Below, one piece after another: positions 6,275-32,768 of a DNA stretch of 38,227 nt; positions within the stretch are counted from its first letter, which is position 1, and each line of letters begins with the position of its first letter. Below the pieces are notes generated by a model. That model was not told the DNA's origin and ran no database searches. It saw only the letters and a program-made list of their open reading frames with translations. The translations under genes and the position numbers were made by a program. Source of the stretch: Vicinamibacterales bacterium (GTDB lineage Bacteria > Acidobacteriota > Vicinamibacteria > Vicinamibacterales > UBA8438); the NCBI GenBank assembly GCA_029940535.1, contig JAPYUM010000039.1, forward strand, positions 1-38,227, read 5' to 3'.

Positions 6275-7218
6275 GACCGCGGTCCTTGCGCCGTGTCCAG
6301 CGGCACGGGGGCAGGCACCGGTGCTGGGCTCGGATGCGCGTCCAGAAACGTGTGGACGAGGGGGCAAATCTGGTCGCCCGCGTCTTCGAGGACGTAGTGG
6401 CCCGCGGTGGAAAAGGTGTGCACCACCGCCTCCGGGAACCGCGAACGCCAGCCGGCCAGGAAGTCTGCGTCGAACACGAAGTCGCGCTCGCCCCAGCAGA
6501 TGAGCATGGGCAGGTGGCGCAGTTGATACAAGTGGTCCTCGACCCATCGTACCAGCGCGTAGCTGCGGTCGTGCGGAGACAACGGGATGTCTTGCACGAA
6601 TCGGAGCGTGGCAATTCTGTTCGCCCACGAATCGTATGGGGCCCGATAGGCCCGACTGACGTCCGCCGGCAGCGGGGTCACGCAGGCCATGTGCGTCGCC
6701 AGATAGGAGAAGGCGTTGAAGCCACGCACGAGCGGTGTCGCGAGTGTCGTGAGGTTGCGGAGCATCGACAGACGCAGCGGGAGAGCCTTGCCGGGCGGCA
6801 ACCGGAACGCGGCGGTGTTGAAGACCACCAGGCGCGTGACCCGCGCGGGCCGGCGTAGCGCGCACGCCATCCCAATCATTCCACCCCAGTCGTGTACGCC
6901 GAAGGTCAGGTTGTCGCCGAGCTGGAGATGCTCGACAAGCGCTTCGAGGTCGGACACCCGGCGCTCGAGACAATACGGGTACTCGGTATCGCTGGGTTTG
7001 TCGGAAGGCCCGCATCCGATGTGGTCGACGGCGATGACCCGATACGAGTCGCGAAGCTCGGTAATCAGGCGCCGAAAGAAGAACGACCACGTGGGGTTGC
7101 CGTGCACGAGGACGATCGGGTCGCCGGTGCCTTCATCGAGGTAGTGGTAACGATGCCCCTGGACATCCAGCCAGTGGCTCTTGAAGGGATAGAGGGGGCG
7201 ACAGGCAGACAGGTCCAC
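6271..7218 (-). CDS. oleB: OleB, beta-lactone decarboxylase
   Basis: The 315-residue protein is an alpha/beta hydrolase of the haloalkane-dehalogenase-like branch. OleB turns the beta-lactone from OleC into a cis-olefin and CO2. Seen: oxyanion motif HGNPTW (about 40-45), nucleophile Asp110 in GVHDWGG (Asp rather than Ser, as in OleB), acidic residue in WGERDFVFD (about 246) and His274 in AGHYVLED. The frame also allows a TTG start at 7242 inside oleA, but that has no ribosome site. The GTG at 7218 has GAGGG four bases upstream, formed by the oleA stop (TGAGGG), and is preferred. The Pro/Ala/Val-rich C-terminus runs into the oleC start with a 4-nt overlap. OleB and OleC are separate proteins here, not fused as in some actinobacteria. 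Confidence 0.9.
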   Translation of the reverse strand: MDLSACRPLYPFKSHWLDVQGHRYHYLDEGTGDPIVLVHGNPTWSFFFRRLITELRDSYRVIAVDHIGCGPSDKPSDTEYPYCLERRVSDLEALVEHLQLGDNLTFGVHDWGGMIGMACALRRPARVTRLVVFNTAAFRLPPGKALPLRLSMLRNLTTLATPLVRGFNAFSYLATHMACVTPLPADVSRAYRAPYDSWANRIATLRFVQDIPLSPHDRSYALVRWVEDHLYQLRHLPMLICWGERDFVFDADFLAGWRSRFPEAVVHTFSTAGHYVLEDAGDQICPLVHTFLDAHPSPAPVPAPVPLDTAQGPRS

Positions 7219-7225
7219 GCGGCCC

Positions 7226-8263
7226 TCACCACTCGAGGCCAAGCAGCAGGCAGTTCAACCCGCTTCCGATCCCGAAGAACCCGACCCGCTGGCCGCGCTG
7301 GAGCTCGCCGCGTTCGTCGGCGATGGCGGCGGTAATGGGCACCGATACGGTCCCGATGTTCCCGAGATACTCAAACGTGGAGAAGTCCCGCTCGACCGGA
7401 ATATTCATGGCGGCCAGGACCGCCGTGCGGTGGGGGGCCCCGACCTGATGGCAGATCACGCGGTCTGGCCCTCCGGGCCAGTCGAGCTCGGTGACGAACG
7501 CCCGGAACGCGTCCGTGCCCAAGGCGACGCCGTGGGTGAGGGTCCCGACCGCGTCAGTCTCCATGACCATCGCGTCGCCGGTCGAGACATCCGGGTCGAC
7601 GCCCCAGTGGCTCAGCGCGTGGTATTCCGGCGCGGCACGCACGACGCCGCCCGTCAGGCGGTGGCCGGCGTTCGAGCGCGAGGCGTGGGTCAGGACGACG
7701 CCGATGGCGCCAGACCCGCCAGTCATCGTAGCCATGGACTTCTTGAACATCTCCATGCTCGGGTCCGCCGTCATACGCGCGATGGTCAGGTCGACAATGT
7801 GTCGCGCGGACTCGCAGGAGACGACGAGGCCGGCCTGGATCTGCCCGAGCTCGATGGCGTTGGCCACCTGGAACATGGCGTTCATCACGCCCAGGCATGC
7901 GTTGCAGGTGTCGTGGACGATGGCCGCGCCTCGGATGCCCAACGCGTCCGCCGTGGCGCAGGCGGTGGCCGGTTCGAAGTTGTCGCGACAGACACCGCCG
8001 TAGACCAGCATGCCGATCTCGTCGGGGTCGACGCCCGCCGCCGACAGTGCCTTCCGCCCCGCCTTGGCGGCGGCAGCGGACATCCGTTGGTCGGCATCCC
8101 AAAAGCGGCGCTCGCGCACACCGGTGAGTGCCGCGATCTGACCCGTTGGCAGCCGCAACGCCTCGTAGATCGGCGCCAGACGGTCTTCGAGGGCGGCCGA
8201 CGTGACGACATGCGGGGCCAGCTCGTAGCCGATGGCCTCGACGTTGACATGTGAATATCGCAT
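7226..8263 (-). CDS. oleA: OleA, head-to-head acyl condensing thiolase
   Basis: The 345-residue thiolase-fold protein condenses two long-chain acyl thioesters without decarboxylation to give a 2-alkyl-3-ketoalkanoate. The Cys-His-Asn triad is complete: Cys123 (NACLG), His272 (CHQVG) and Asn302 (GNIG). Glu97 in CRDNFEPATAC matches the Glu that acts as general base in OleA and that separates it from FabH-type KAS III, where decarboxylation drives condensation. Length is typical. The ATG at 8263 lies 8 nt after the stop of the PfaC-like synthase, so OleA is translated from the same message as the PUFA synthase. Its acyl donors are inferred to be chains from that synthase; this is not shown by sequence. 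Confidence 0.92.
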   Translation of the reverse strand: MRYSHVNVEAIGYELAPHVVTSAALEDRLAPIYEALRLPTGQIAALTGVRERRFWDADQRMSAAAAKAGRKALSAAGVDPDEIGMLVYGGVCRDNFEPATACATADALGIRGAAIVHDTCNACLGVMNAMFQVANAIELGQIQAGLVVSCESARHIVDLTIARMTADPSMEMFKKSMATMTGGSGAIGVVLTHASRSNAGHRLTGGVVRAAPEYHALSHWGVDPDVSTGDAMVMETDAVGTLTHGVALGTDAFRAFVTELDWPGGPDRVICHQVGAPHRTAVLAAMNIPVERDFSTFEYLGNIGTVSVPITAAIADERGELQRGQRVGFFGIGSGLNCLLLGLEW

Positions 8264-8271: not shown

Positions 8272-11200
8272 TCAGACGACGAGCCGCATCCCGAAGGCCT
8301 GCACTTCGTAGATCGGGGTCCCATCCACCGAGAGGAACCCGTCACCCGTGATCATCGGGGTCGGTCCCTCCTCGACCCCGGTGACGACGACTTCGACTTC
8401 GACCCGACGGTGGCGGGGAACGATCTGGCCTCGATAGATCCAGGTGTGCGTGTGGCCGAGCGCGATCGGTTCGAAGCGATGGGTGTGTTGTACCCGCTCG
8501 CCCCAGCGGTCGAGGGCGGCCAGCTTCAGGAGTTGCAGGAACGACTCCAGGCCGAGAGATCCGGGACAGACCGGGTCCTGGTAGAAGTGCGCGGCGAAGA
8601 ACCACTCGTGCGGGTCGACCTGTTTGACTCCCCGGATGAATCCGAGCCCGTTCGGTCCGCCATTCGGTACGAAGAGCTCGATCTCGTCGACCATCCGCAG
8701 CGCGTGAGCCGGTAACACGAGCCCGTTGTCGGGCGCTCGTCCATCGGGGTCGTCCGGGGTGACCGGGGCGGACGTGTCCAGCGCGAAGCGCCTCGCCCGC
8801 CCGACTTCGTCCGCGGGTGGGACCCAGCGCCGGTCAGACGCGTCGCGGATGCCGACCTGTCGGGCCAGCGCGGCCGAGGAGAAGAAGCCAAATTGGGTGT
8901 CGCCGTCGTAGACAATCCGGCCGGCCCGCCAGACCTGCATGTCGAACGACTGCACGATCATCCCCGCCGCTTCGGAGACCTTCGTGATCCGGACCCGCAC
9001 CGTCAACGTCCCGGCGTCGTTGAAGACCTCCTCATACAGCGTGGCGGTACCGCCGAGGTTGCGAAACGACAGGTCGTCGCGGCTGCGCAGCGCCGACCCC
9101 AGATACGCGGCGAGCCATCCGCACGGTTGGAGCGCGATCTCCAGCACCACCGCGAAGGGCATCGCGCGCTGGCGGTTCGCTCGAAAATACCAGGCGTCTT
9201 CCGGCACGTCGTATTGGGCCTCAATCCATCCGCCCGGCGCGAGTTCCCACGCGTCGGCGTGAATCGCGGTGATGCGGTCGAGGAACTTGAAGGGCGGCCC
9301 CGGGAGTCGAGCGATACGACGGTCGGCATCGAACACGCAGTAGGGTTCGCCGAACGCCTCCGATGGCTTCCCGACCGCGAAGGCGAGAATACGGTCGTTG
9401 TCATAGAGCGGCGGCCGCGGGCTCTCGGGGACCGCGGTATCGCCAATGGCGGTGACCAGAGCCCTGTCAGGCGGGACCACGGACACCGACCCCGCCGCGG
9501 CCTGCGTCGGGCGCCAGGTGGTCTCGATCTGCTCGCGGGTGGCCCCGGTCATCTGAAGGGACATGTTGGTGAACTGGACAATCCGGTGCCCGTCGGCGTA
9601 AATCAGCGCGTCGGCGAGCGCGAACGGCTCAGGACGGTACCCGAGCTCGGTGATGTACACCTCGTAGGTCACGATCTGTGTCGTCTGGGTCACCGGCCCG
9701 CGGCACCGTAACGCGCTGGCCGCGCCCGGCACGGGTTCGTAGGACACGCCGGTCTGCTCGGTGACCCAGCCCATCCGCATGAGGAACACGCGCAGGGTGT
9801 GGAGGCAGCACTCGTACATCAACGTCCCCGGCATGACCATGTCGTCGACGAAGTGGCAGGTCAGGAACCACTCGTCCCCGCGAATGTCCGCTTCGGCGCG
9901 GATCAGCCCGAGGCCGAAACGGCCGCCGGTCGGATCCACCTCGACCACGCGGTCGATGAGACGCATACGTCCACCGGGTAGACGCACCGGAGTCCGCAGA
10001 CCGAGGCGGTCAAACGGGGGGCCGAAACACTCGGCCAGGTCGCCGCGGCGTAGCGCCTCGATCTGTGCCGCGGCATACGATTCCACCCGCATTGGCACCA
10101 GTTCCCGCCAGTCCGCGGGGCGCCGTCCGGGCGCCAGCGCCTGGTCGTCGGCCGTCAGGAGGATGCCGCCGGACGCCTCGGTTTCCTGTTCGGTGAAGAA
10201 GCCGGCGCAGCCGTGCTCCATGGTCAGCACGGTACGGCCCGCCAGTGTGCCCTCGAACCAGAAGAAAAACAGGTAGGTGTCACCCTGGCGGACAAAGCGA
10301 TCGATGTGGATGTCATAGCGGACCACATCGTCGGGTCGCGGCAGTCCGCCGTGAAACGTCACGGTGGCATCGAGCAACCGATACGATCGTGTGCCCTGCA
10401 CCTCCAGGTCGATTCCCAGATAGGAGCAGAGAAACAGATCGGCTTGTCCCGCCTCGACCGAGATGCAGACCGGCATGTGGGCGCCGTCGAGATACCACGC
10501 GTCGGGTCGCACGTCATGCTCGGTCACCACCCGGCCGCCCTGCATCGAACCCTTCACACCCTCGACGCTCAAGATACGGTCGACCAGCATCAGCGGCTCG
10601 TCGGGCAGACGGACGCGGACGGGATAGCGGTCCAGCGCGGCGAATTCGGGGCCCAGCACTCTCTCGGCCGAACCGGTCGCGAACTCCAGACACTGGTTGC
10701 GGTCATAGGCCACGACAGATGGCGCGGCCGGGACCAGAGCGGAGACGGGCTGGATATCCTGCTCGCCGAGTGCGCCCAGCAGCCGGGCCTGCAACGCCAG
10801 TGTTTCGCCCAGCCCGGCCATCGCCGTGTGTGAGTAACGCAAGAACGCGTCGTGCGCGTGAGCGCTCGCTGTCGCCGTCACCGCCCCCGCCAAGCCCGCG
10901 GGGCCAAGCGAGTGTTCCGCCGGGAAGCGGTCCGGTCGTGGTCGGATCGGGATCGCCGTGGCGGCTGGTCGTGGAGGCGGGTCTGGCCACCGAGGCGGCA
11001 GCCGGGGCTGGGGAGATAGTCCTCCCGTGGGCACGACGATGCGTGTCGTGGTGGTGTCGGCAGTGTGCGTCACGTCCGACGATTGATGCCCGAGCGCGGT
11101 CGTGGTGTCGGCATACAGAGCATCGAAATTGGGGAGTACGCGTTCGGTATACAAGGACGCTACAAGCCGCAGCACCGTGGTGACATCGTGTTCGCCCTTC

Positions 11201-14200
11201 ACGCACGCCGACTGAGCCAGGTGCGGACGACCCTTGAGGATCTTGCCGATCATGCGTGAGCACGACGCCTGTGGGCCGGCCTCGACGAACACGCGAACGC
11301 CATCCGCATACGCTTGCTCAATCGTCGCCGCGAAGTCGATGCCCGTCACGGCCTGGGCCACGACCGCGTCAGCCGCTGAGGCGCGGTCAACGGCATAGGC
11401 CCGTTGCTGGGCGGCACTGTAGAAACGGATGCCGTCGGGCGGGGTCGTGGCCAGGACATGCAACTGGCGATACGCGTCTTGGGCCGGTCGCGCGACCGCG
11501 CAGTGGACCGTCGACGCGCCGGCCAGATCGACAGCCTCGCACCCGAGGGTGGCGATGACGTCATCGACCGCGGCACGCTGGCCACCGATCACGCACTCGT
11601 CTGTCGTGTTGACGATCTGCAGATACGCACGGTCGACGCCGGCGACGACTCCTCGCACCACCGCCGCGGGGCGATTGATGACGACGCTGCGCCAGTCGAC
11701 GGGCTCCCCGTCGGCGAGACGCCACGCCCTGCGAGCGGCGTCGCACCGACCGACGAGTTCGGTCTGAAACAGTGACGACTGGCGCATCCGGCGATACATC
11801 GTGTCGCGCTCGGGCCAGACTCGCATCGCGAACAGGGCCGTTGATTCGCCCAAGCTGTACCCGATCGCGGCGGACGGCTGGAGACCGAGGCCGCGGAGCA
11901 GATCGCTCATCACGACGCCATGCGCGACCTGGCCAAGCAGCATGGCCAGAAAGTCTCGGTCGAGGACGTCGTCGGATGCCTGACGCCACCCATTGCGCCA
12001 GTCATGTCGTCGCGGCGTAACGAGTCGCGGCAACACGTGATCGGACAGATGCGCGGTTCCCTCGTCGAGATCGCGGAGGATGTGGGGCCACTGGACGCCG
12101 ACACCACCGCCCATCCCGACATAGTGGTTGCCGGACCCGGGAAACACGAAAGCGACCTGCCCGCTCGGTCCGAGCGGGTTCGGTGAGTAGAACACGCCGT
12201 GCTGCCCAGGCATGGCGGTTGTCGGATCGGCCCGCAGCCCGCGCTCGGCTAGGTCGATGGCTCGACTCAGTTGGGCGGCGTTGGTGGCGTGGATGGCGAG
12301 ACCGAGTGCTTTGGGGGCTGACGGCGAGTGCCGCGCGGCATGCCAGCGCCGGGCCAGTGACTCGATATCCGTCTCGTCGGCGGTGTCGCCCGCGAGTGCC
12401 CGCAGTGCCGTCAGACCAGCGAGAAGCTCACTGGTGTCGCGGCCTGACACCCCGAAGACCGCCTGGTCTCTGCTGCCCAGTGGTTGTCGACGCTCCGCGA
12501 CCCGCGCCGCCGCCTGGCGTTCGACGCCTTCCAGCACGACATGAGCGCTCACGCCGTCGCACGTCATCACGCTGACGCCGGCGCACCGGGGGCCCTCAGC
12601 GCGGTCATGCAGCCACGACTGGGCTCGGATCGGCATGTGAAACGGCCCACGGCTCCAGGCCGCCGGTGTCGCGGGTTGGCGAAATCCAGACAGCGGAGGA
12701 ATCAGTTCCTGATACAAGCAGAGCGCGGTCTTGACGACCGACACGAGCCCGGCCGCGGCCCCCGTGTGGCCGACAGTCGGTTTTGCCGAGCCGATGGCGC
12801 AGGACGCGTCCGCGGCGGCGTCATGGTGGACCCCAAAGAAGTCGGTCAGCGCCTCGGTCTCCACGGCGTCCTCACGCGGGTCGCCGCTTCCGTGTGTCTC
12901 CAGATACCCAACACGCCCCGGCGCGAGGCGCGCGGCCGCATACGCGCTCTCGAGCGCGCGGGTATACGTGCTGGCGTCGGGGCCCGGGGCCGACCCTCCT
13001 GCGACCCCTAGACCGCGGATGACGGCGTACACCCGGTCGCCGGCGCCGACGGCGTCCGGCAGCCGCTTGAGCACCACGGTGGCCGCCCCTTCCCCGACGA
13101 CGATGCCGTCCGCGGCCACGTCGAACGGATTTACCTCGCTGCGCGGTGAGTAGGGACGGACCGCGCCGGTCGCCAGCATCGCCCGCATGTCGCCGGGGAG
13201 GTCCACCGCGCCGACGACGACCGTATCCATCTCGCCTCGCCGGAGCGCCGACAGACCGACGTCCAACGCGCGAATTCCAGAGGCTTCTTCGGCCGAGATG
13301 GCAAAGCTGGCGCCGCCGAACCCAAACTCACGAGCGATGCGGCTGGCAATGATGTTGCCCAATGCGCCAAGCACTCGGCCTGGGGTCAACGCCGGCCCTG
13401 ACTCGTTTCGAAGTGTCGCGACCCATGCGTCGAATCGCGGGCCGTCGAGGTGCAGTGCCAACGACGTGGCCCACTCTCGGGCCAGTCCGAGCAGGGCCCA
13501 GCGATGATGGAAGTTGGTGGTATTGAGGTCGAGCCCCATGCCGATGATCACACCGGTCCGGAGGTTGTCGCTCAGCCCCGGTGTTCCAGCGTCCGTGAGA
13601 GCCCGTTCGACCGATTGGAGCATGAGCCACTGCTGGGGGAGGGTCTCGGGAATCTCATTCGGCGGTACCCGGAACGCGCCGACCGGCACCGAGGCGGCAT
13701 CGATGTATGCGCCGGACGGTGGCTGCCCCCCCCAGACGGCTCGGGCGTCATCGTCACGCCCGCGCCATCGCGTATTCGGCCACGGCTCGATCGCCGACTC
13801 GCCTCGGAGCATCGCCTCCTGAAACGCCTGGAGCGAATCGAGACGGCCGACGTGCGCGTCCATGCCGACGATGGCGACCGGAGTGGTCGACGCGTCTGGC
13901 CGCGGTAGTCTTCCACGAGTCGGTGACATAGGTGTGGCGCGTGCACCGACCGCCGGTGCCGGCGCTGCTTCCTCTTCGATCAGGACATGCGCGTTGATGC
14001 CGCCGAATCCGAAGGCGCTGACGGCGGCCCGCCGCGGCGTCTCGGGGCTGCGGCGCTCCCACGGCTCGGCCACCGTCTGCACGCGAAACGGGCTCGGCCG
14101 CTGCGTCTGGTCCTGGCCTCGGTCCAGTGCGGCACTCGTGTTGGCACTGTCGACGTTGGCCGAGGGCGGCAAGGTCCGATCACGTACGGCGAGCAGAACC

Positions 14201-15348
14201 TTGATCAAGCCGGCGGCTCCGGCGGCAGTCAACAGATGCCCGATATTGGACTTCACGGAGCCGATGGCACATTGGCCAGAGCGCCACCCCACCGGCGGCG
14301 ACGCCTGCTGCCACAAGGCGTGCAGGCTTTCGACCTCGACCGTATCGCCGAGTGGGGTGCCTGTGCCATGGCACTCGATGAGATCGATGTCGTCGGGCCG
14401 CCACGAGGCCTGACGGTAGGCCTCGCGCATGGCCCGTAGCTGCCCTTCGGAATTGGCCGCGAGGAGACTGCCGGCGATGTCGTTCGACAGACCGATGCCG
14501 CGGATCACGCCGTAGATGGTGTCGCCGTCACGCCGGGCGTCATCCAGTCGTTTGAGGACCACGATGCCCGCGCCCTCGCCGACGACGAGGCCGTCGGCGT
14601 CGGCGCTGAACGGCCGGCACACTCCGGAGGGCGAGAGTGCCCGCAATTGGCAGAAGCCCATCTGCGTGTAGAGGCTCTCGGGTCGGGACACGCCGCCGGC
14701 GAGCATGGCGTCGGTGCGACCCGCGTTCAGCTCGTCGCACGCGAGCTTCACCGCAACCAGACTCGACGCGCACGCCGCGTCGAGGGTGCAGCTCCCGCCG
14801 CCCAGCCCCAGCGCCTGTGCCAGCAGACTGGCCGGTCGGGCGGTTACGCGTGCGTTGAGCGGAGACGAGAGCGGCGCCGGGCGCGGCGTCCGCGTTGCGG
14901 CCGGCCCCAGCAAGGCGGCTTCGAACGCCCGGCCGTGTATGTCGCTGGTGATCGCGGATGCCCCGTCGGTCGGGAGCGCGATCGCGGCCAGCGTCACACC
15001 AACGCGCCGGCGGTCCAGTCTGTCGGTGGCGGCGTCGGCGAATGCCTGGCGACCGACGTGGAGCACCATCTCGTAGAGTGGATCCAGCCCACGCAACGTG
15101 TCCGCGTCCAGGTTGAGCCCGGCCGCGTCGAACGCGAAGTTCTCGACGAAACAGGCGCGGGTCGAGTAGACGGTGTCCGGGGCGAGGTCGGGGTGATACG
15201 CCTCTTCGGGGTCGAGCACCCACCGTCCCGGCGGCGCGACACGGGATGCATCGTGTCGGGTTCGGATATGGCGCTGGAAGGTGTCGAGGTCGGGCGCTTG
15301 GGGAAACAGACCGCCAAGCCCGACCACGGCGATCGGGGCGGCGGTCAT
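8272..15348 (-). CDS. PfaC-like PUFA synthase subunit (KS-CLF-AT-DH array)
   Basis: The 2358-residue iterative synthase has, in order: an active KS (1-460; Cys193 in DAACASSL, His327 in ECHGTGT, His371 in KSNIGH); a chain-length-factor-like KS (490-940) with the Cys replaced by Glu688 (SAEEASG) while both His positions are kept; a PfaB-type acyltransferase (1065-1400; FPGSGNHYVGMG, Ser1165 in GYSLGES); a Pro-rich linker with a helical patch (about 1500-1530); and four FabA-like hotdog units to the end. Units 2 and 4 carry the dehydratase His (His1832 in CHFVDDMVMPG, His2254 in AHFYQDPVCPG). Units 1 and 3 lack it, so this is two double-hotdog dehydratases. No acyltransferase of the AGPAT type and no thioesterase ends the protein, so release is unexplained. 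KS-CLF-AT-DH-DH resembles myxobacterial Pfa3. The start overlaps the previous stop (ATGA). Confidence 0.88.
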   Translation of the reverse strand: MTAAPIAVVGLGGLFPQAPDLDTFQRHIRTRHDASRVAPPGRWVLDPEEAYHPDLAPDTVYSTRACFVENFAFDAAGLNLDADTLRGLDPLYEMVLHVGRQAFADAATDRLDRRRVGVTLAAIALPTDGASAITSDIHGRAFEAALLGPAATRTPRPAPLSSPLNARVTARPASLLAQALGLGGGSCTLDAACASSLVAVKLACDELNAGRTDAMLAGGVSRPESLYTQMGFCQLRALSPSGVCRPFSADADGLVVGEGAGIVVLKRLDDARRDGDTIYGVIRGIGLSNDIAGSLLAANSEGQLRAMREAYRQASWRPDDIDLIECHGTGTPLGDTVEVESLHALWQQASPPVGWRSGQCAIGSVKSNIGHLLTAAGAAGLIKVLLAVRDRTLPPSANVDSANTSAALDRGQDQTQRPSPFRVQTVAEPWERRSPETPRRAAVSAFGFGGINAHVLIEEEAAPAPAVGARATPMSPTRGRLPRPDASTTPVAIVGMDAHVGRLDSLQAFQEAMLRGESAIEPWPNTRWRGRDDDARAVWGGQPPSGAYIDAASVPVGAFRVPPNEIPETLPQQWLMLQSVERALTDAGTPGLSDNLRTGVIIGMGLDLNTTNFHHRWALLGLAREWATSLALHLDGPRFDAWVATLRNESGPALTPGRVLGALGNIIASRIAREFGFGGASFAISAEEASGIRALDVGLSALRRGEMDTVVVGAVDLPGDMRAMLATGAVRPYSPRSEVNPFDVAADGIVVGEGAATVVLKRLPDAVGAGDRVYAVIRGLGVAGGSAPGPDASTYTRALESAYAAARLAPGRVGYLETHGSGDPREDAVETEALTDFFGVHHDAAADASCAIGSAKPTVGHTGAAAGLVSVVKTALCLYQELIPPLSGFRQPATPAAWSRGPFHMPIRAQSWLHDRAEGPRCAGVSVMTCDGVSAHVVLEGVERQAAARVAERRQPLGSRDQAVFGVSGRDTSELLAGLTALRALAGDTADETDIESLARRWHAARHSPSAPKALGLAIHATNAAQLSRAIDLAERGLRADPTTAMPGQHGVFYSPNPLGPSGQVAFVFPGSGNHYVGMGGGVGVQWPHILRDLDEGTAHLSDHVLPRLVTPRRHDWRNGWRQASDDVLDRDFLAMLLGQVAHGVVMSDLLRGLGLQPSAAIGYSLGESTALFAMRVWPERDTMYRRMRQSSLFQTELVGRCDAARRAWRLADGEPVDWRSVVINRPAAVVRGVVAGVDRAYLQIVNTTDECVIGGQRAAVDDVIATLGCEAVDLAGASTVHCAVARPAQDAYRQLHVLATTPPDGIRFYSAAQQRAYAVDRASAADAVVAQAVTGIDFAATIEQAYADGVRVFVEAGPQASCSRMIGKILKGRPHLAQSACVKGEHDVTTVLRLVASLYTERVLPNFDALYADTTTALGHQSSDVTHTADTTTTRIVVPTGGLSPQPRLPPRWPDPPPRPAATAIPIRPRPDRFPAEHSLGPAGLAGAVTATASAHAHDAFLRYSHTAMAGLGETLALQARLLGALGEQDIQPVSALVPAAPSVVAYDRNQCLEFATGSAERVLGPEFAALDRYPVRVRLPDEPLMLVDRILSVEGVKGSMQGGRVVTEHDVRPDAWYLDGAHMPVCISVEAGQADLFLCSYLGIDLEVQGTRSYRLLDATVTFHGGLPRPDDVVRYDIHIDRFVRQGDTYLFFFWFEGTLAGRTVLTMEHGCAGFFTEQETEASGGILLTADDQALAPGRRPADWRELVPMRVESYAAAQIEALRRGDLAECFGPPFDRLGLRTPVRLPGGRMRLIDRVVEVDPTGGRFGLGLIRAEADIRGDEWFLTCHFVDDMVMPGTLMYECCLHTLRVFLMRMGWVTEQTGVSYEPVPGAASALRCRGPVTQTTQIVTYEVYITELGYRPEPFALADALIYADGHRIVQFTNMSLQMTGATREQIETTWRPTQAAAGSVSVVPPDRALVTAIGDTAVPESPRPPLYDNDRILAFAVGKPSEAFGEPYCVFDADRRIARLPGPPFKFLDRITAIHADAWELAPGGWIEAQYDVPEDAWYFRANRQRAMPFAVVLEIALQPCGWLAAYLGSALRSRDDLSFRNLGGTATLYEEVFNDAGTLTVRVRITKVSEAAGMIVQSFDMQVWRAGRIVYDGDTQFGFFSSAALARQVGIRDASDRRWVPPADEVGRARRFALDTSAPVTPDDPDGRAPDNGLVLPAHALRMVDEIELFVPNGGPNGLGFIRGVKQVDPHEWFFAAHFYQDPVCPGSLGLESFLQLLKLAALDRWGERVQHTHRFEPIALGHTHTWIYRGQIVPRHRRVEVEVVVTGVEEGPTPMITGDGFLSVDGTPIYEVQAFGMRLVV

Positions 15349-18300
15349 CGAACGTCGGACGTTCGAGAACCGCCAGACTGGGCCACCAGGGGGCGGAAGG
15401 CGTCACGCAGGGAGGGATCTACGGTCCACGCGTACCCTTCCATCCGTGCCAGGACCGTCCCGCCCGCATCGAGGAAGGTGATGTCGCCCGTGACGCGCTG
15501 GGGACTCTGTTCTCGGATCTCAAGTGCCGCGACGACGCCGTCGGTCGGGAACGTGGCCGTGTATTGTCGGTATCGGGCCCCGAATGTCGGTAACGACACG
15601 CAACCGAGCGCCTTGTGACACCAGAGGATGCCCAACTGGAGTCCGGCATCCACAATGAGCGGGTCGCCCAACCAGACGGAACGCAGCGGGTCGTCCATCC
15701 AGTCCGCGGGAGCTGGGGCCGAACGCACGTGGGCGACGATCCCGTCCGCCGAGTATCCGTCAATATGTTCGATGCCATGAAAGTGCGGACCGTGAAAGAG
15801 CACTTCACGATACGCGGCGTCCACGCTGTAGCCGTAGTTTTGCTCGTCGAGCCGTGGAGGCCGCGCATACTCGGGTGGGGTCGGGAGCGTCGACAGCAGG
15901 ACCGCACGAGCCCGCGCGTGGGCGGTCTCGTCGTCGTCCGCTCCGCTCCGTAGCTCGACATCGACCTCGAAGGACTCGTCGTGCCGGCGAATTTTGGACA
16001 CCACCACCCGGAGATCGCGTGGGCCGTTGCTCAGGATCACGCCCTTGAGCACGCGAAACTCCGTGAATCCGCCCAGGAGCAACCCCGGGTTGTCGTGCAG
16101 CGCTCCGTGACCGAGCCACTCCTGCATGACCGCCACCGGCAGGACGGGATACCCACCGATGACATGAGAGTTCAGGAACGCGTGCCGGTCGATGTCCAGC
16201 CGGCGTTCGAACACCGGGGACAGCCCTGGTTGGGCGGCCGATGCCGGCCGTGTGCGACGTGCTGCGTCGTCGCCGGCTGGCTCCGGTAGCACGTCGCCGA
16301 TCACCACCTCGGTCGCGCCCGTCTCGGTGCACGCCAACTCGTCGAGCAGGCTCCGCGCACCGGCCTCGAGCGAGATGACGCCGACGCCCGCCCGGACGAA
16401 GTCGCGCTTGAGGGCCGGGGTGACCATTCCACCGTCCCAGGGGCCCCAATCGATCGCGACCACGCGACAGGTCGGACGCAGTGAGGTCTGACGCTGCGCC
16501 ACCTTGTTGAGCACTTCGTTGGCCATGGCGTAGTCGACCTGCCCCTGTCGGCCGAAACGCCCGCTGACCGAGGAGAACAGGGCCAGGAACGCCAACGCCT
16601 CCGGCTCGATGGCGTCGAGGAGGTGACGGAGGCCGGCGACCTTCGTGTCGAACACCCGTGCGAACTGCTCGACCGTCTTGTCGTCGATCCATCGATCTTC
16701 GAGCACACCCGCGGCGTGGATGAGTCCGCGGATCGGACCGAGGCTGCGACGGATGTCGGCGATCGCTGCGGCGACAGCGTCACCGTCTCGCACATCAACC
16801 GAGCGATACACCGCGCGGCCCCCGACCCGCTCGATACGGGTGATCGTGTCGGCGACCTCGCGATTCGCGATGTGGTGTCGATACGCGAGTTCCAGGTCGG
16901 TTGGGGCTGGCGTCACGCGGCCCTTGAACCCATGTTCGAGCAATGCGCGCTTGATGTCCGCCTCGCCGCCCACGCCGTTCAACCAGGCTGGTTCCGGCTC
17001 TGGAGCGGGGGAGCGCCCCAGCAGCACAAGTGTCGGTTGGCTCTCGGTGGCGAGCGCGACGGCGACGGCGGCCGTCACGCCGCGGGCTCCGCCGGTGAGG
17101 ACCACGACGTCGCCGTGTGCGCATCGGGGTCGCCCCGACGTGACCGGGACCGGTATCAGATCGAGACCGCGACGACGGCGCCCGTCCAACCCGATCTCGA
17201 TGGGGCCGTCGGCAGCCAACTCGCGCGCGATGGCGGCGGCCACCTGTTCGTGGTCAGCCCAGGCCGCGGACACGTCCAGGGCCTTGCAGCGTAGAGCCGG
17301 CCACTCCCGAGACGCGGTCTTGGTCAAACCGGCCAGACCGCCCTGAACCGCGTCGAACTCGCCGCCAGTGACGCCGAACGCGCCGTCCATGCGAGAGACG
17401 GTCGCCAGCAGGGCGCCGCCACCAGCCGCCGCCTCGCGCAGCATCGGGCCGACCCGCTTGGTGAGCGCGAACGCGTTCTTGAGCCGGGTCTCGGACGCTG
17501 CGCCCCAGAGCGGGGCCGCGATTGGATCAGGCGATCCAAGCACGATGAGGCCACCAATGCGGGCCGTGCTATGACTCCCGTTGTCACCGTCGGCTGCCAC
17601 GACGTGGGCGGTGCGGCCCTGGGCGGCGAACTGGTCGCACAACGCTTGCGGCAAGCCGGTGCCGTCGTCGACGATCCACACCTCGCGTCCGACGGCGAGC
17701 TCGATCCGACCACTGTCAGAGAGTGCTGGCAATTCCACGGCGCGCAACACCCGCCGAGTGGGCGGGGCACTTGGTGCCGTGTGGTCCTGGCTCGCCGGCT
17801 CCGGAGCCACACCCGGGACCGCGTGTGCGACCGGTGTGGGTTCGTCGACCGAGGGGGCATCGGCTGTCGGCGGGACGACCGATGCATCGTTCGTCCTCAT
17901 GTAGTCGATGATGTTGCGCAACGTGCGCAGGCTGCCGACATACGCGGAGTCGACCGCCGCCATCTCGGGAAGCCGGGTCTGCAATCCGGCCAGAATTTCC
18001 AAACGCTTGATGGAGTCGATGCCGAGGTCGGCCTCGAGATCCATGTCGAGGTCCAGCATTTCAATGGGGTAACCGGTGAGCTCCGCGACGACCTCCAGCA
18101 AGGTATCCGCGGCGACCGAAGCGCCGGCCGGGCGCGCGGCCTCGCTGACCACGGCTGACGGACTCGGCTCGACCTGGTCGACCGGGTCAACCTGGCCACG
18201 CGCGTTATCCCCATCGGACGGGTCCGCCGGTGCGGCCTCCGGGGTAACGGGTAGGGAGGGGGCGGGCGCGATCGGCGAGAGCGCGGCGGGCACCACCGGT

Positions 18301-21300
18301 TCGACCGCCACCGGCGTGTGCGTCGGCGCCGGCCCGCCGGCCGCCGGCTGGTGGGTCGCTGGCACGGGCGGACGCAGAATGTTCGAGCCGCCATCGACGA
18401 GTCGTTGCTGGCTCTCCATCACCATCTGGATGGTTCTGTGCGCCGACTCCTGCCCTTCGAGAAACCGCAGATGCGCCTCCGCCGTCTGTTGCTGAAGCGT
18501 CTGCATGGCCCGCAGCCCTTCCTGCACGACCTCCAGGACGCCCGCCACGCCCACCGCCGGGGGGGACTGGCCTGGTCCGACTGGTTCCGTCGGCACAGAC
18601 GCGACTGGGGTGGACTGGTAGTGGCGCGCGGACACTGGAGGCTGCGGGGCCTCGACGGCGGGGACGTCGGGCGCCGTACCGTCGATCGTGTGGTCAGGTT
18701 TGCTCACGTCAAGGGGTCCATGGGGCTCCGACACGTCCGCGGTGGGCCGCGTCTCGGGGGGTGATGGCTGTGGTGAACGGTAGTTCGTCCCCAGCAGTGA
18801 AATGTTCATCTTGGGCTGACGGGGCTTGCGAGCGTGTGGTTCCCACGCCGTCAGATCGACGGGATGACCCAGGGCACCCAGGTGCGCGAGCAACCGAGCC
18901 AGGTCGGTCATGCCGGACCCTCGTCCGCACGTGGCGTCTATCGCGACGACGTCGTGCGGCCGGTCGCCGAGGGTCGCGCGAACCAGACTGGTCAGGACGT
19001 TGCCCGGACCGACTTCCGCGAATGTTCGAACCCCCGCCGCATACAGATGCTCGAGCTCGTCGACGAAGTTCACGGGGGTCACTAACTGCCGGGCCAGTGT
19101 GTCGCGGACGGTCGCGGCGTCCGGGCCGTAGGGTTCCGCCGAGCAGTTGGCATACACCGGTAGCGCCCCGGCCGAGAACTCGATGTCGTCGAGACCATGT
19201 CGAAATCGGTCGACGGCGTCCTGCATCAGCGGGCTGTGGAACGCGGCGGCCACCTGCAACGGCGTGGTTCGCCAGTCTCGATCGGCGCAGGCCCGTACTG
19301 CCCGAGCGATCGCGTCACGCGTGCCAGACAACACGCCCTGCGACGGGCTGTTGCGGTTGGCCAGCACCGCGTCGATGCTCTCGTCGGCGAGCATGGTGTC
19401 CAGTTCAGTCAAGGGTGCCTGCACCGCGACCATCGTCCCGCGGTCACTTGGTCCCGTCGCCATCAGCTGGCCGCGGAGCGTCGAGAGGCTCCGCAGGGCG
19501 TCGTCATCCATCCGGTCCCCGGCCCGCAGCGCGACCAGCTCGCCGTAGCTGTGGCCGGCCGTGCAGTCGGGTCGCACACCGAATCGGTGGAGGACTCTCA
19601 GCATGGCCAGACTCACGGCCCCGATAGCCGGTTGGGCGACATCGGTTCGGGTGAGCGCGGCCTGTTGTTGCAGACGGGCGCCGGCGTCAAAGACCGGGTT
19701 TGGGAAAATGCGGTCGCTCAGGCACCCCGCGCCGTGCGCCAGCGCGTCCGCATCCGCTTGGGCGATCGCCTCCCGCGCCTCGGGGAAGATGCACGTCAGG
19801 TCCCGGCCCATGCCAACGTACTGGCTGGCCTGTCCAGGAAAGAGGAACGCGAGTCGACCTGGTCGCTGTGGGCCACCGAAGAACACCCCCGGCCGGGTCC
19901 ACGACTGCTCGTGCCCCTTGGCCGCCAGCGCCGCGGTCGCGTCGGCGAAGAGTCGGATCGGGTCGGCCCCAGCGGCAACCACGATGAGCAGGCGGAACGC
20001 GTGATCGGGCGAGAATGTGCCCCGCGATTCGAGCGCGCGGAACGCCAGCGCGTCCGCCGAGGCGGGCTCATCGATGAACGCGCGCCATTGGTTCAGACCG
20101 TCTCGCAATGGCTCGATGGTGTCGGCTGACAGGGCCACGAGCTGGGTCGAGCCGTCCCACGCCGCACTCGCGTCCTGGCCGGTGTACTCCTCGAGCACCG
20201 CGTGAAAATTGCTTCCGCCGAATCCGAAGGCACTCACACTCGACCGGCGCGGATGGCCGTGTGCCCCAAGCCACGGCCGGGTCTCGGTGTTGAGGTAGAA
20301 CGGGCTGTCGTCGATCTCGAGGCGTGGATTGGGCTCGCTGATCTTGATCGTCGCCGGTAGCACCTTGTGGTGCAGGGCCAGTGCCGCCTTGATCAGTCCC
20401 GCGGCGCCGGCGGCGGCCTTGGTGTGCCCGATCTGCGACTTGACCGAACCGAGCGCGCACCACGGTCCGTCGGATTGTGCCGCGGCGTACACCGATCTGA
20501 GCGCGTCGAACTCGACGGCGTCGCCGACCGTCGTGCCGGTTCCGTGGGCCTCGACCAGTTGTACCGTCGACGGGTCGACCCCGCTGACCGCGTAGGCGTC
20601 GCGGAGCGCCCGGGTCTGTCCCGACGCGCGGGGGGCGTAGATGCTCTGCGAGCGGCCGTCGCTCGAGGTGCCGATTCCGCGAATCACCGAGTAGATACGG
20701 TCACCGTCGCGTTCGGCATCCGCCAGACGCTTGAGGACCACCATGCCCAGACCTTCGCCGATCACGGTGCCGTCGGCGTCTTTGGCGAACGGCCTGGCGT
20801 CTCCCGTTGCTGACAGCGCCTGGGTCTTGCTGAAGCACATGAACATGAAGACGTCGTTGAGCGTGTCGACGCCGCCTGAGATGACCATGTCGGTCCGTCC
20901 GGTCGCCAGCTCGAGCATCGCCAGGTGGATGGCGCCGAGCGAGCTCGCGCAGGCCGCGTCCACGACGCAGTTCGTGCCTCTGAGATCGAGTCGGTTGGCG
21001 ATGCGGCCCGCAACCACGTTGCCGAGGAGACCGGGGAACGAGTTCTCCTGCCACCCCACGTAGTCGTCCGCGATCCGATCGATCACCGTCTCCACGAGGT
21101 GCTCGGGGACACCGGCGTCACGCATCGCGCGACGCCACTTCGGGTGGCCCAATCGTGCCCCGAGCGGGATGACCAACTCCAGCGTGCCGGTGACCCCGAG
21201 AATGACACTGGCCCGGGTGCGGTCGAAGTCGCTCTCGGGCCCGTAACCCGCGTCTTCGAGCGCCGCCTTGGCCACGATGAGCCCGAGCAACTGCGCCGTA

Positions 21301-21590
21301 TCCGTCGCCTCCAGCACAGCCGGAGGGATCCCGAATTCGGTCGGATCGAATGTGGTGGGTGAGAGAAACGCGCCGCGGCGACAGTAGGTCAGGTCGGCCC
21401 GGCCGGGGGTGGGGTCGAAGTAGTCGTCAAGCGACCAGTGCGTCGGGGGAACGTCGGTGACGCTGTCCTCCGACGTGCGGATCAGACGCCAGTATTCCTG
21501 GAGCCCTTGAGCCCGAGGAAACAGACATCCCATGCCGACGATGGCAATGGGGCTCTGGGTGGCCGTCTCGTTGTCTCCCCGTGGCGCCAA
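15345..21590 (-). CDS. PfaA-like PUFA synthase subunit (KS-MAT-ACP-KR-DH)
   Basis: The 2081-residue protein has: KS (10-465; Cys214 in DAACASSL, His349 in EAHGTGT, His389 in KSQIGH); malonyl-CoA acyltransferase (580-870; LFPGQASQ, Ser681 in GHSYGE, FHSPLM); a Pro-rich linker holding a helical stretch at 1017-1064; a single ACP (1160-1232; phosphopantetheine Ser1193 in LGIDSIKR); ketoreductase (1290-1770; TGGARG at 1499, Ser1673/1674, Tyr1687 in DYAMAN); and a C-terminal polyketide-type dehydratase (1795-2060; His1809 in HVIGGYPVLP, Asp in IVDAGLQ). It extends acyl chains with malonyl units and reduces them. One ACP is unusual: PUFA synthases normally carry a tandem array. The TTG start at 21590 is chosen because TGAGGAAG lies 7 nt upstream and no better start precedes the KS. 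Confidence 0.9.
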   Translation of the reverse strand: MAPRGDNETATQSPIAIVGMGCLFPRAQGLQEYWRLIRTSEDSVTDVPPTHWSLDDYFDPTPGRADLTYCRRGAFLSPTTFDPTEFGIPPAVLEATDTAQLLGLIVAKAALEDAGYGPESDFDRTRASVILGVTGTLELVIPLGARLGHPKWRRAMRDAGVPEHLVETVIDRIADDYVGWQENSFPGLLGNVVAGRIANRLDLRGTNCVVDAACASSLGAIHLAMLELATGRTDMVISGGVDTLNDVFMFMCFSKTQALSATGDARPFAKDADGTVIGEGLGMVVLKRLADAERDGDRIYSVIRGIGTSSDGRSQSIYAPRASGQTRALRDAYAVSGVDPSTVQLVEAHGTGTTVGDAVEFDALRSVYAAAQSDGPWCALGSVKSQIGHTKAAAGAAGLIKAALALHHKVLPATIKISEPNPRLEIDDSPFYLNTETRPWLGAHGHPRRSSVSAFGFGGSNFHAVLEEYTGQDASAAWDGSTQLVALSADTIEPLRDGLNQWRAFIDEPASADALAFRALESRGTFSPDHAFRLLIVVAAGADPIRLFADATAALAAKGHEQSWTRPGVFFGGPQRPGRLAFLFPGQASQYVGMGRDLTCIFPEAREAIAQADADALAHGAGCLSDRIFPNPVFDAGARLQQQAALTRTDVAQPAIGAVSLAMLRVLHRFGVRPDCTAGHSYGELVALRAGDRMDDDALRSLSTLRGQLMATGPSDRGTMVAVQAPLTELDTMLADESIDAVLANRNSPSQGVLSGTRDAIARAVRACADRDWRTTPLQVAAAFHSPLMQDAVDRFRHGLDDIEFSAGALPVYANCSAEPYGPDAATVRDTLARQLVTPVNFVDELEHLYAAGVRTFAEVGPGNVLTSLVRATLGDRPHDVVAIDATCGRGSGMTDLARLLAHLGALGHPVDLTAWEPHARKPRQPKMNISLLGTNYRSPQPSPPETRPTADVSEPHGPLDVSKPDHTIDGTAPDVPAVEAPQPPVSARHYQSTPVASVPTEPVGPGQSPPAVGVAGVLEVVQEGLRAMQTLQQQTAEAHLRFLEGQESAHRTIQMVMESQQRLVDGGSNILRPPVPATHQPAAGGPAPTHTPVAVEPVVPAALSPIAPAPSLPVTPEAAPADPSDGDNARGQVDPVDQVEPSPSAVVSEAARPAGASVAADTLLEVVAELTGYPIEMLDLDMDLEADLGIDSIKRLEILAGLQTRLPEMAAVDSAYVGSLRTLRNIIDYMRTNDASVVPPTADAPSVDEPTPVAHAVPGVAPEPASQDHTAPSAPPTRRVLRAVELPALSDSGRIELAVGREVWIVDDGTGLPQALCDQFAAQGRTAHVVAADGDNGSHSTARIGGLIVLGSPDPIAAPLWGAASETRLKNAFALTKRVGPMLREAAAGGGALLATVSRMDGAFGVTGGEFDAVQGGLAGLTKTASREWPALRCKALDVSAAWADHEQVAAAIARELAADGPIEIGLDGRRRRGLDLIPVPVTSGRPRCAHGDVVVLTGGARGVTAAVAVALATESQPTLVLLGRSPAPEPEPAWLNGVGGEADIKRALLEHGFKGRVTPAPTDLELAYRHHIANREVADTITRIERVGGRAVYRSVDVRDGDAVAAAIADIRRSLGPIRGLIHAAGVLEDRWIDDKTVEQFARVFDTKVAGLRHLLDAIEPEALAFLALFSSVSGRFGRQGQVDYAMANEVLNKVAQRQTSLRPTCRVVAIDWGPWDGGMVTPALKRDFVRAGVGVISLEAGARSLLDELACTETGATEVVIGDVLPEPAGDDAARRTRPASAAQPGLSPVFERRLDIDRHAFLNSHVIGGYPVLPVAVMQEWLGHGALHDNPGLLLGGFTEFRVLKGVILSNGPRDLRVVVSKIRRHDESFEVDVELRSGADDDETAHARARAVLLSTLPTPPEYARPPRLDEQNYGYSVDAAYREVLFHGPHFHGIEHIDGYSADGIVAHVRSAPAPADWMDDPLRSVWLGDPLIVDAGLQLGILWCHKALGCVSLPTFGARYRQYTATFPTDGVVAALEIREQSPQRVTGDITFLDAGGTVLARMEGYAWTVDPSLRDAFRPLVAQSGGSRTSDVR

Positions 21591-21597: not shown

Positions 21598-21605
21598 CTT
21601 CCTCA
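21598..21605 (-). promoter_or_regulatory. Ribosome binding site fused to pfaD stop
   Basis: The pfaD stop codon TGA is the first part of TGAGGAAG on the minus strand. It lies seven bases before a TTG codon at 21590 and decides the start of the PfaA-like gene. A ribosome ending pfaD would sit on the initiation site of the next gene, which implies translational coupling of the enoyl reductase and the synthase. A similar stop/ribosome-site fusion (TGAGGG at 7228-7223) precedes oleB. Confidence 0.6.
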
Positions 21606-23288
21606 TTCGCAGGCAACAAGGGCGGCAAGGTCCGCCCGGTCGCGTGGCTGGAACCGCCGTGCCGCCCGCGGCAACGACACCCCCTGTGCCCGTAGCCATC
21701 CCACCCGCGCCAGCGCTGCCGCGCCTACGAGCAGGTTCATCCCCAGCGTCACCACGTCACGTCGATCCGAGGCTTCCAGGAATGAGCCCCGGGCCCACTC
21801 GTTGAACGCGCCGATCGCCGGTCCGCACCAGATCTGGTAGTCGCCCTTGCGCGAGGCCTCGCCAGAATTCGCCCAGCGGGATGCCTGGCCGAGATACGAC
21901 CGAAAGACCAGCGCCATCCGGTGTTTCGGATCGCTTTCCGCTCGCGCCACCTGGGCCGGGTCGCGGACCGCAAAATATGCCCGCGTGCTGGCCCACGCCT
22001 CGGTCAGGGTCGAGCGGAAGTAGTCTCGCTCGAGAACCTGCCGGGTCGCGGCGGGAATCTCGTCCAGCGACGCATGCGTACGGTACAAACGGTACAGGTT
22101 GCGGGCTCGAACCGCAAACATCGTACCCCACTTGAGGACCTGAACCTGCACGCCCATCTCAAACATGTCCGCGGCTGGGGCCATGGTGACATCGGCCTGG
22201 CCCGAGCGCGCGAGCATCTCGCGCACCACCGGCGACGTACCAGCTTCCACGCAGGACTGATTGATGGTACCCGTGAGCACGAACGCGGCCCCCATGGCGA
22301 AGGCGGCCGCCGCCGACTCCGGCGTGGCGATACCGCCAGCGGCGCCGACCCGTAACGACGTTCGATAGCCGTGTCGGGTCTGCATATCGTCGGCCAGGGC
22401 CAGCATGGTTGGCACCAGGGAGATCGCCGGCTGGTTGTCGGTGTGCCCGCCGGAATCCGCTTCCGCCGTCAGGTCCTCCGCGACCGGGATCTCAGCCGCC
22501 ATGTCCGCCTGGCTGGCGTCGATGTGCCCCTCCGCGACCAAGGTGGTCAGCAGCTCGACCGGGGGCGGCGCGAAGAACTTGCGCGCCACCTCGACCCGCG
22601 ACACCTTCGCGATCACCTTGTTGGGCGTGACCACCGCGCCCTCCGCATCACGATGGATTCCGGCGACGCGATATCGGATCAGCGGGAGGGTCAGATCGAT
22701 GTAGGCCGCCGCGCTGACGAGATGAACGCCACGACGAAGATAGAGTGCGACGACGGCCGCTTCGCTCTGTGGCTCGGCCGGGGTGTGGATCAGATTGAAC
22801 CCGTAGGGCCGGTCGCCCACGGTGTGCTGAATACGGTCAATGGCCGCCTCGATGCGTTCGGGCGACAGACCGGCGGCACCGAAGAAACCGACCATCCCCG
22901 CCCGGGCCATCGCCTCGACGACCGCCTCGGACCCGACGCCATTGGCCATGGCGCCGGCGACATAGGGATAGATCAGCCCGTGCGTGGCGCAGAATCCGGG
23001 GTCGCCGAGCTGGTCCGGTCGTAGCGCCGGCGCGTAGCCCACGAGCCGCCGCGCGCCTGATGCGGCGGCTGCCTCGGCCTCCAAGGTGGCGGTGCCGCCG
23101 TGGGCGACCGCAAGCTGTCCGTCCACGTCAACGAGCCGGACCGGCGAGGCTACATGATGGACCGCGCGCACCACGGCGTCCCCGCCCACTTCAGGGGCTC
23201 GGACGCCGTCCGGCGTCCACCAGCCAACGGCGGACTCGCGAACTGGCTGTATCCGGAGGATCGAGGCTTTTGCTTGCACGTTCACCAC
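21603..23288 (-). CDS. pfaD: PfaD, trans-acting enoyl reductase of PUFA synthase
   Basis: The 561-residue protein is the FMN-dependent enoyl reductase of the nitronate-monooxygenase-like TIM-barrel family that acts in trans on PUFA synthases. Diagnostic stretches are PYVAGAMANGVGSEAVVEAM, GFFGAAGLSPERIEAAI, PYGFNLIHTPAEP, RVGAAGGIATPESAAAAF (flavin-phosphate binding), TGTINQSCVEAGTS and the PfaD-specific DMFEMGVQVQVLKWGTMF. The C-terminal helical region (SYLGQASRWANSGEASRKG) is also typical. It begins at GTG (23288) only 3 nt after the ispH stop; a second GTG follows directly, and no strong ribosome site is visible, suggesting coupling to ispH. In a PUFA synthase, PfaD reduces enoyl intermediates at some cycles, while others keep or isomerise the double bond. 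Confidence 0.94.
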   Translation of the reverse strand: MVNVQAKASILRIQPVRESAVGWWTPDGVRAPEVGGDAVVRAVHHVASPVRLVDVDGQLAVAHGGTATLEAEAAAASGARRLVGYAPALRPDQLGDPGFCATHGLIYPYVAGAMANGVGSEAVVEAMARAGMVGFFGAAGLSPERIEAAIDRIQHTVGDRPYGFNLIHTPAEPQSEAAVVALYLRRGVHLVSAAAYIDLTLPLIRYRVAGIHRDAEGAVVTPNKVIAKVSRVEVARKFFAPPPVELLTTLVAEGHIDASQADMAAEIPVAEDLTAEADSGGHTDNQPAISLVPTMLALADDMQTRHGYRTSLRVGAAGGIATPESAAAAFAMGAAFVLTGTINQSCVEAGTSPVVREMLARSGQADVTMAPAADMFEMGVQVQVLKWGTMFAVRARNLYRLYRTHASLDEIPAATRQVLERDYFRSTLTEAWASTRAYFAVRDPAQVARAESDPKHRMALVFRSYLGQASRWANSGEASRKGDYQIWCGPAIGAFNEWARGSFLEASDRRDVVTLGMNLLVGAAALARVGWLRAQGVSLPRAARRFQPRDRADLAALVACE

Positions 23289-23291
23289 GAT

Positions 23292-24224
23292 CTAGCGCTG
23301 AAGCGCCATCGGCAGTTGGAACACGGTGCTTTCTTTAGCCGTCACGCACGGTTCCACATCGGATACACCGAGCTTTTCGAGCCGTGCCACGACATCATGC
23401 ACCACCGAACTCGGGGTGCTGGCCCCGCCGGTGACGCCCACCCTGACGACACCGCCCAGCCAAGAGGGGTTCACATCGTCGTGACTGTTGATCAAATGAC
23501 TGGGAATCCCACGCACGGCCCCGATCTCGGCCAGTCGGGCGGCGTTGCTGGAGTTCTCGGACCCCACAACCAACAGCAGTCCGATACCGCTATCGCACAT
23601 CGCCTTGACGGCGTTCTGCCGATTCTGCGTGGCGTAGCAAATATCGTCCGCCGGTGGCAACTCGAGGTGGGCGAAACGATCGCGCAGCGCGTCGACGACG
23701 TGCTGGGTGTCGTCCATGCTGAGCGTGGTCTGCGTCAAGACCATCAGTTTGTGATGCTCTGGTATCGGTGTCGTGCGGGCGTGGTCGACGTTTTCGATCA
23801 ACGTCGTGTGGTCGGGCGAGTGGCCCATCGTGCCCTCCACCTCCTCGTGACCGGCATGACCGATCAAGAGTATGTGATACCCCTCGTCGACGAAGCGCTC
23901 CACCTCTGCGTGCACCTTGCTCACCAGCGGGCACGTGGCATCGATCACCCGCAGCGCCCGTCGCTCGGCCTCTTGGTTCACCGAAGGACCGACGCCGTGA
24001 GCGCTGAAGACCACCAGCGCGCCTTCCGGGACCTCGCCGAGCTCGTCTACGAACACCGCGCCCCGTTCACGGAGCCATCCGACGACATGACGGTTGTGAA
24101 CAATCTCTTTGCGCACGTAGACCGGCGCCCCGAACTGCTTCAGGGCCAATTCGACGATCTGAATCGCGCGATCGACACCGGCGCAATAGCAGCGCGGGTT
24201 TGCCAACAGCAGTTTCATCGTCAC
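23292..24224 (-). CDS. ispH: IspH, HMBPP reductase
   Basis: The 310-residue protein is 4-hydroxy-3-methylbut-2-enyl diphosphate reductase, the last step of the MEP isoprenoid pathway, giving IPP and DMAPP. The three Fe-S cysteines are present: Cys14 (CYCAGV), Cys98 (DATCPLV) and Cys196 (ICYATQNRQ). Substrate-site motifs are intact: VHNRHVV, FSAHGV, GHEEVEGTMG, TQTTLS, GSENSSN and TGGASTP. The first motif reads PRCYCAG rather than the usual PRGFCAG. A GTG start at 24224 is preferred over the ATG at 24218 because AAGG lies 7 nt before it. The gene sits between the DUF5916 gene (23 nt) and pfaD (3 nt). Normal isoprenoid supply is the likely function; co-expression with the lipid synthase is the odd point. 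Confidence 0.96.
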   Translation of the reverse strand: MTMKLLLANPRCYCAGVDRAIQIVELALKQFGAPVYVRKEIVHNRHVVGWLRERGAVFVDELGEVPEGALVVFSAHGVGPSVNQEAERRALRVIDATCPLVSKVHAEVERFVDEGYHILLIGHAGHEEVEGTMGHSPDHTTLIENVDHARTTPIPEHHKLMVLTQTTLSMDDTQHVVDALRDRFAHLELPPADDICYATQNRQNAVKAMCDSGIGLLLVVGSENSSNAARLAEIGAVRGIPSHLINSHDDVNPSWLGGVVRVGVTGGASTPSSVVHDVVARLEKLGVSDVEPCVTAKESTVFQLPMALQR

Positions 24225-31073: not shown

Positions 31074-31624
31074 AGACGATCTCATCCTCGACGACACGCC
31101 GCGAGAGCGGCCCCGACGGGGCCCGCGGATTCATGTTGATGGAGGCGCTGTTCTCCCTCGGCCTGCTCACCGTCGGCATGTTGGCCATGGCCTCTGTCTT
31201 CCTCCAAGGTATGCACCAGGTGAACGCGGCCACCGGCCTACCGGTCGCCAAGCAGAAGGCGGTTGAGATGGTCGAGAGCGTCTTCATGTCGCGTGACACG
31301 CGGACGATCTCGTGGGCTCAGGTCCGCAACGTGGCGGACGGCGGGGTCTTCGTGGATGGTGCCCAGCCGGTCCGCGTGCCGGGCGTCGATGGCTTGGTGA
31401 ACACGGGCGATGACGGTGCCATTGAGCATTTTCGGCTGCCGGGCCTCGACGGGTTGGTCGGCACCGCCGACGATCGGATCATTCCGCTCGCTGGCTTCTC
31501 GCGGACGGTCGAGATTACCGACATCAACCTGAACTTGCGCCAGATTACTGTGACCATCGGGTACCCGTTGGGGACGGGGACGGCCACCTTCACATTGGTG
31601 ACCTATATGTCGTCGTATGCGTGA
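31058..31624 (+). CDS. PilV-like minor type IV pilin
   Basis: The 188-residue prepilin carries the processing site G|FMLMEALFSLGLLTVGMLAM, with Glu at +5 and a long hydrophobic helix. The GMLAMASVFLQGMHQVN region fits PilV/GspI-like minor pilins. The middle holds two similar motifs, DGLVNTGDD and DGLVGTADD, spaced about 24 residues apart; such Asp/Gly-rich loops occur in exported proteins and may bind calcium. The ATG at 31058 overlaps the preceding gene by 16 nt; a TTG at 31070 overlapping the stop is a weaker option. It is the second gene of a four-gene minor-pilin operon. Confidence 0.82.
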   Translation: MAGELKTISSSTTRRESGPDGARGFMLMEALFSLGLLTVGMLAMASVFLQGMHQVNAATGLPVAKQKAVEMVESVFMSRDTRTISWAQVRNVADGGVFVDGAQPVRVPGVDGLVNTGDDGAIEHFRLPGLDGLVGTADDRIIPLAGFSRTVEITDINLNLRQITVTIGYPLGTGTATFTLVTYMSSYA

Positions 31625-31673
31625 GACTGAGGCTGCTAGCAGCCCGCACGCCATCATCCCGGAAAGACCAGCC

Positions 31674-32759: not shown

Positions 32760-32768
32760 GAGCCAGTG

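Follow-up and report, generated by a model that had tools for sequence, protein, structure and literature searches.

Multiple tandem carrier domains (ACPs) have been called a "distinguishing characteristic" of Pfa (PUFA-type) synthases, and single-ACP clusters have been kept in the Pfa family if their domain content and ketosynthase (KS) phylogeny agree (PMC3098273). The same survey, by Shulse and Allen in 2011, already described pfaBC fusions as well as the linkage of pfa to ole genes, and proposed the Type I secondary lipid synthase of Geobacter, Pelobacter and Gemmata as a precursor source for olefins, e.g. hentriacontanonaene (PMC3098273). The Pfa and Ole systems of Shewanella are functionally coupled: OleA most likely takes its chain directly from the PfaA ACPs, and an inactive OleA still lowers EPA, which the authors read as a sign that it competes for the ACPs (PMC6463001). 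In engineered PUFA synthases, additional ACPs are reported to have given higher yields with an unchanged product profile (PMC5067506). For Acidobacteriota, our literature search on pfa-ole clusters returned only the 2011 survey, with a different (Type R) cluster there (PMC3098273).

The window, i.e. the entire 38,227-nucleotide stretch of DNA analysed here, carries on its minus strand eight genes in the order ispH-pfaD-pfaA-pfaC-oleA-oleB-oleC-oleD, running from 24224 down to 3558, with intergenic gaps of -17 to +38 bp throughout and 8 bp between pfaC and oleA, and these genes are presumably co-transcribed. Our main reading, to which we assign a probability of about 80%, is that this eight-gene unit makes a long-chain polyunsaturated hydrocarbon, that its single-ACP PfaA feeds OleA, and that the single ACP arose by secondary reduction.

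The pfaA gene (ORF 15345-21590, TTG start, 2081 aa) matches TIGR02813 (PfaA) at 1399.7 bits against a cut-off of 1010.1, which assigns its PfaA-like product to the Pfa synthases, and Pfam matches give the domain order KS - AT(MAT) - single ACP - KR - PS-DH. Pfam and signature residues place the ketosynthase, with DAACASS, HGTGT and GHTKAA, at 20340..21554 and the acyltransferase, with GHSYGE and FHSPL, at 18963..19847. The sole ACP (17901..18107; aa 1162-1230, with Ser1193 in DLGIDSIKRL) was recognised by both the Pfam PP-binding model and a Pfa-type ACP profile, and is followed by the ketoreductase (16434..17105; PF08659) and by a C-terminal PKS-type dehydratase (15423..16220; PF14765) with HxxxGxxxxP and DAGLQ motifs, for which a search of solved structures gave no useful match. 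All of these lie on the minus strand. Signature residues of KS, AT, KR and PS-DH were all found, so that the single ACP sits within an otherwise complete synthase. A helical AH..FL motif, kept in many loci of several phyla, was also seen in PfaA (aa ~1070-1115, before the ACP region) and in PfaC (aa ~1490-1540, before the first FabA-like unit), and is possibly a docking or dimer helix.

An earlier note, made from the letters alone, had reported one LGIDSIKR-type carrier site (Ser1193) in PfaA and none in the PfaC-like protein. Its coordinates for PfaA and Ser1193 proved exact, and both counts held in every search: in the Pfam annotation, in a PF00550 search of the whole genome that marked one place only in the pfa contig, the PfaA ACP, and in a run of a Pfa-type ACP profile, built from 181 motif segments and used with all filters off, that returned one domain in PfaA at 108 bits, with no hidden or degenerate second ACP there and no ACP in PfaC. 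With one ACP, PfaA lacks the tandem array that is regarded as a hallmark of Pfa synthases.

That note had also allowed for a tandem array collapsed in assembly, a suspicion favored by the draft state of the genome (228 contigs) and by the tandem ACPs of some relatives, which share up to 189 identical bp (L131). Among 54 related PfaA ORFs with at least two ACPs, neighboring ACPs were mostly 60-95% identical at the DNA level with short shared runs, and a few of these ORFs held shared runs of >100 bp; in L065, the closest relative with several ACPs, the units are 69-70% identical in DNA with shared runs of <= 18 bp, and all three were assembled. Moreover, one ACP was likewise found in five further acidobacterial genomes from this family, at the same place in the full-length PfaA orthologues of G127 (90% identity), G050 (75%) and G090 (74%), and once each in the partial orthologues of G135 and of G132, whose contig is identical to SXOW01000518.1 ("Acidobacteria bacterium"). 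The PfaA of the Phycisphaerae MAG OFTM285 (L056) also has one ACP. These single-ACP relatives are separate assemblies that come from two genera within one family of Acidobacteriota and from a second phylum, and neither a further Pfa-type ACP nor a leftover fragment of one was found elsewhere in the genome. Because a collapse would have to recur in every member of the clade, an assembly artefact is scarcely credible, and we read the single ACP as a property of the synthase.

The same genome-wide result bears on a second carrier protein, encoded elsewhere, that would serve the synthase or OleA in trans, as the earlier note had also envisaged. The genome does encode a FAS-II-type ACP (contig C191), but PfaA has an intact ACP, Ser1193 included, the genome holds no second ACP of Pfa type, and known Pfa synthases use integrated ACPs; such a partner is very unlikely, and we retain the PfaA ACP as the probable carrier for both synthase and OleA.

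The remaining synthase genes are of Pfa type as well. The pfaC gene (8272..15348, minus strand) is a pfaBC fusion, for which Pfam and NCBIfam give the order KS - CLF - PfaB-like AT - four FabA-like hot-dog units; the CLF is devoid of the active-site Cys, and the two KS-type stretches with the four FabA-like units, read as two double hot-dogs, form the KS-CLF-DH2 arrangement. The AT stretch scores 100 bits against TIGR02816 (PfaB), below the cut-off of 144.3, and neither a fused acylglycerol-phosphate acyltransferase nor a thioesterase was detected in PfaC. The enoyl reductase gene pfaD (21603..23288, minus strand) matches TIGR02814 at 611.1 bits (cut-off 449), and 3 bp upstream of it lies ispH/lytB (23292..24224, minus strand), the only ispH of the genome. 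The ispH-pfaD neighborhood was also seen in G127, G132, the Phycisphaerae MAG and a Planctomycetota locus, and no ispH was seen at the pfaD-adjacent place in G050 or G090; its linkage across phyla hints at block transfer. One Sfp-type PPTase was found in the genome, on contig C35, unlinked to the pfa cluster.

Downstream of pfaC, oleA (7226..8263) encodes a thiolase-fold condensing enzyme that matches NF006720 at 447.9 bits (cut-off 285) and aligns over its full length (E ~1e-56) with the Xanthomonas OleA structures 3fk5 and 3row. The alignment retains Cys, His and Asn together with the OleA Glu, i.e. Cys123 in CNACL, Glu97 in RDNFEP, and the HQV and GNIG motifs, residues established as the catalytic ones in OleA. 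The oleB gene (6271..7242), which overlaps oleA by 17 bp, encodes an alpha/beta hydrolase of haloalkane-dehalogenase-like fold, with the Asp nucleophile in HDWGG (aligned to 5mxp). It is followed by oleC (4592..6232, with an approximate start and a GTG near 6228), whose product, a putative olefin beta-lactone synthetase, matches NF006754 at 720 bits (cut-off 478) and scores 646 bits against NF045786, the leading match, below the strict equivalog cut-off of 900. The ATG of oleD (3558..4592) overlaps the oleC stop (TAATG), and its product, a putative 2-alkyl-3-oxoalkanoate reductase, scores 428 bits against NF042422, the top of all families, below the strict equivalog cut-off of 580. All four ole genes are on the minus strand, and OleB, OleC and OleD each match their own family best. 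The suggestion of the earlier note that the synthase might be specialised or belong to a different secondary-lipid branch gains support from oleABCD lying directly after the synthase genes. The low-flux role that it also proposed is a possibility drawn from the engineering of other synthases (PMC5067506).

A second ole cluster in the genome was considered and rejected, as there is one OleA (the next match is 32% identical over ~150 aa) and one strong OleD. Within the same class, the genome G488 holds an OleD-like reductase (L152:1488-2477, 48% identity) near a PfaD, with no OleA in the stretch covered there. Elsewhere in the window, two adjacent proteins at 31617-35270 (plus strand) resemble type IV pilus assembly components, with prepilin-like N-termini, and look PilW/PilX-like by eye.

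From these genes, a pathway can be proposed in which the Sfp-type PPTase would activate the single PfaA ACP, on which PfaA, PfaC and PfaD would iteratively build a polyunsaturated acyl chain. OleA would then bind the PfaA ACP, remove one chain and condense it with a second, after which OleD would reduce the resulting beta-keto acid, OleC would close the beta-lactone and OleB would release CO2 to leave a polyene hydrocarbon. By analogy with the described systems, the product is most likely a polyene of the hentriacontanonaene type (31:9), and free PUFA for phospholipids is a possible second product, via the PfaB-like AT with its sub-cut-off score. The synthase could instead supply PUFA for membrane phospholipids through this AT, with the ole genes acting on FAS-II acyl chains, as the PfaB-family AT of PfaC, the description of PfaB as a terminal acyltransferase (PMC12895367) and the FAS-II-type ACP of the genome would allow. 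We regard this division of labor as unlikely, given that the ole and pfa genes form one tight run, that their linkage recurs across many phyla, and that OleA of Pfa-bearing marine bacteria uses only the Pfa-derived chain (PMC6463001). The preferred hydrocarbon pathway also admits a stricter, unlikely version, in which the synthase of this lineage has become dedicated to hydrocarbons: reduction to one ACP, with OleA in the same operon, would couple chain building to hand-off, hardly any free PUFA would form, if any, and the ACP number would set the split between further elongation and capture by OleA.

Pfa-ole linkage is not confined to the window. Scanning contigs with an eight-member PfaA alignment yielded 80 loci, among which pfaD-pfaA-pfaC followed by ole genes was frequent in Geomonas, Geotalea, Geobacteraceae, Gemmatimonadetes, Planctomycetota, Riflebacteria and gammaproteobacterial MAGs. 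The complete pfa-ole order is the same in the related genomes G050 and G090, and in G050 the ole genes lie on the same contig. Where OleA lay within reach of a complete PfaA ORF, that ORF had one ACP in three cases (the window, G050 and G090) and several in 25 (two ACPs in seven, three in eight, four in nine and five in one). These counts are silent on the absence of ole, as a contig or flank end often truncates the loci in which no OleA was reached. Within Acidobacteriota the cluster is rare: PfaD was detected at E <= 1e-80 in 7 of 396 genomes of the phylum, including the window's own, and within the family in 6 of 28 genomes and 2 of 10 genera.

To place the single carrier, we built an 86-row KS-AT tree and a more careful 26-row tree, using only residues N-terminal to the first ACP. 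The window PfaA, four acidobacterial relatives and the Phycisphaerae MAG form one clade in both (99 SH-aLRT in the 86-row tree; 100/99 in the 26-row tree), which sits inside a larger set of rows with 2-4 ACPs, the wider relatives around it having 2-5; the deeper forks reach only ~90/90, and the exact sister is not settled. In the KS-AT tree, the window is nested among Pfa-like clusters that include the Geobacter lineage, so that the KS phylogeny agrees with assignment to the Pfa family. Forcing a joint clade with the single-ACP actinobacterial rows was rejected (p-AU 3e-61, AU test), and the acidobacterial and actinobacterial single ACPs have separate origins. Rather than the primitive state that had been suggested, the single ACP most likely represents a secondary reduction that became fixed in the lineage; reduction is the simpler reading because the clade (100/99) is nested among multi-ACP relatives, as unrooted change counts alone cannot tell gain from loss. 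The trees also contain pfa or pfa-ole clusters from four MAG records titled Klebsiella pneumoniae, Akkermansia muciniphila and Nitrosovibrio, which cluster with environmental rows of gammaproteobacterial, burkholderial or verrucomicrobial origin, and whose species names look doubtful.

Taken together, the window holds a known kind of system with an unusual and conserved ACP number, Pfa-Ole coupling having been published in Shewanella and suggested for Geobacter, and it adds a full, operon-like run of pfa and ole genes from Acidobacteriota. A natural single-ACP synthase with every other domain in place, shared by two genera and linked to OleA, offers a ready comparison for the role of extra ACPs and for the competition of OleA for the carrier.

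Among the described systems, the Type I secondary lipid synthase (PMC3098273) shares the pfaBC fusion with the window, and three Geobacter-lineage loci have the same pfaD-pfaA-pfaC-oleABCD order; these loci carry 3-5 ACPs, compared with one in the window clade, and their PfaA identity is only 48-53% in the best segment. The pfaABCDE and oleABCD genes of Shewanella and Photobacterium encode the same enzyme set, and OleA has been shown there to use the Pfa synthase to form the 31:9 hydrocarbon (PMC6463001). Unlike the window, these bacteria have a separate pfaB and a PfaA with 4-6 ACPs; in some of them pfaE and pfaT lie in or near the cluster, and ole is not always adjacent. Five actinobacterial Pfa-like clusters (Streptomyces, Kribbella; cf. 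Type L, PMC3098273) resemble the window in their one PfaA ACP and differ from it in that their flanks, as far as covered, lack ole genes. The nearest relative outside Acidobacteriota is the Phycisphaerae MAG OFTM285, with 59% PfaA identity, one ACP and the same ispH-pfaD-pfaA-pfaC order, on a contig that ends just after pfaC, before the place where ole genes would be expected.
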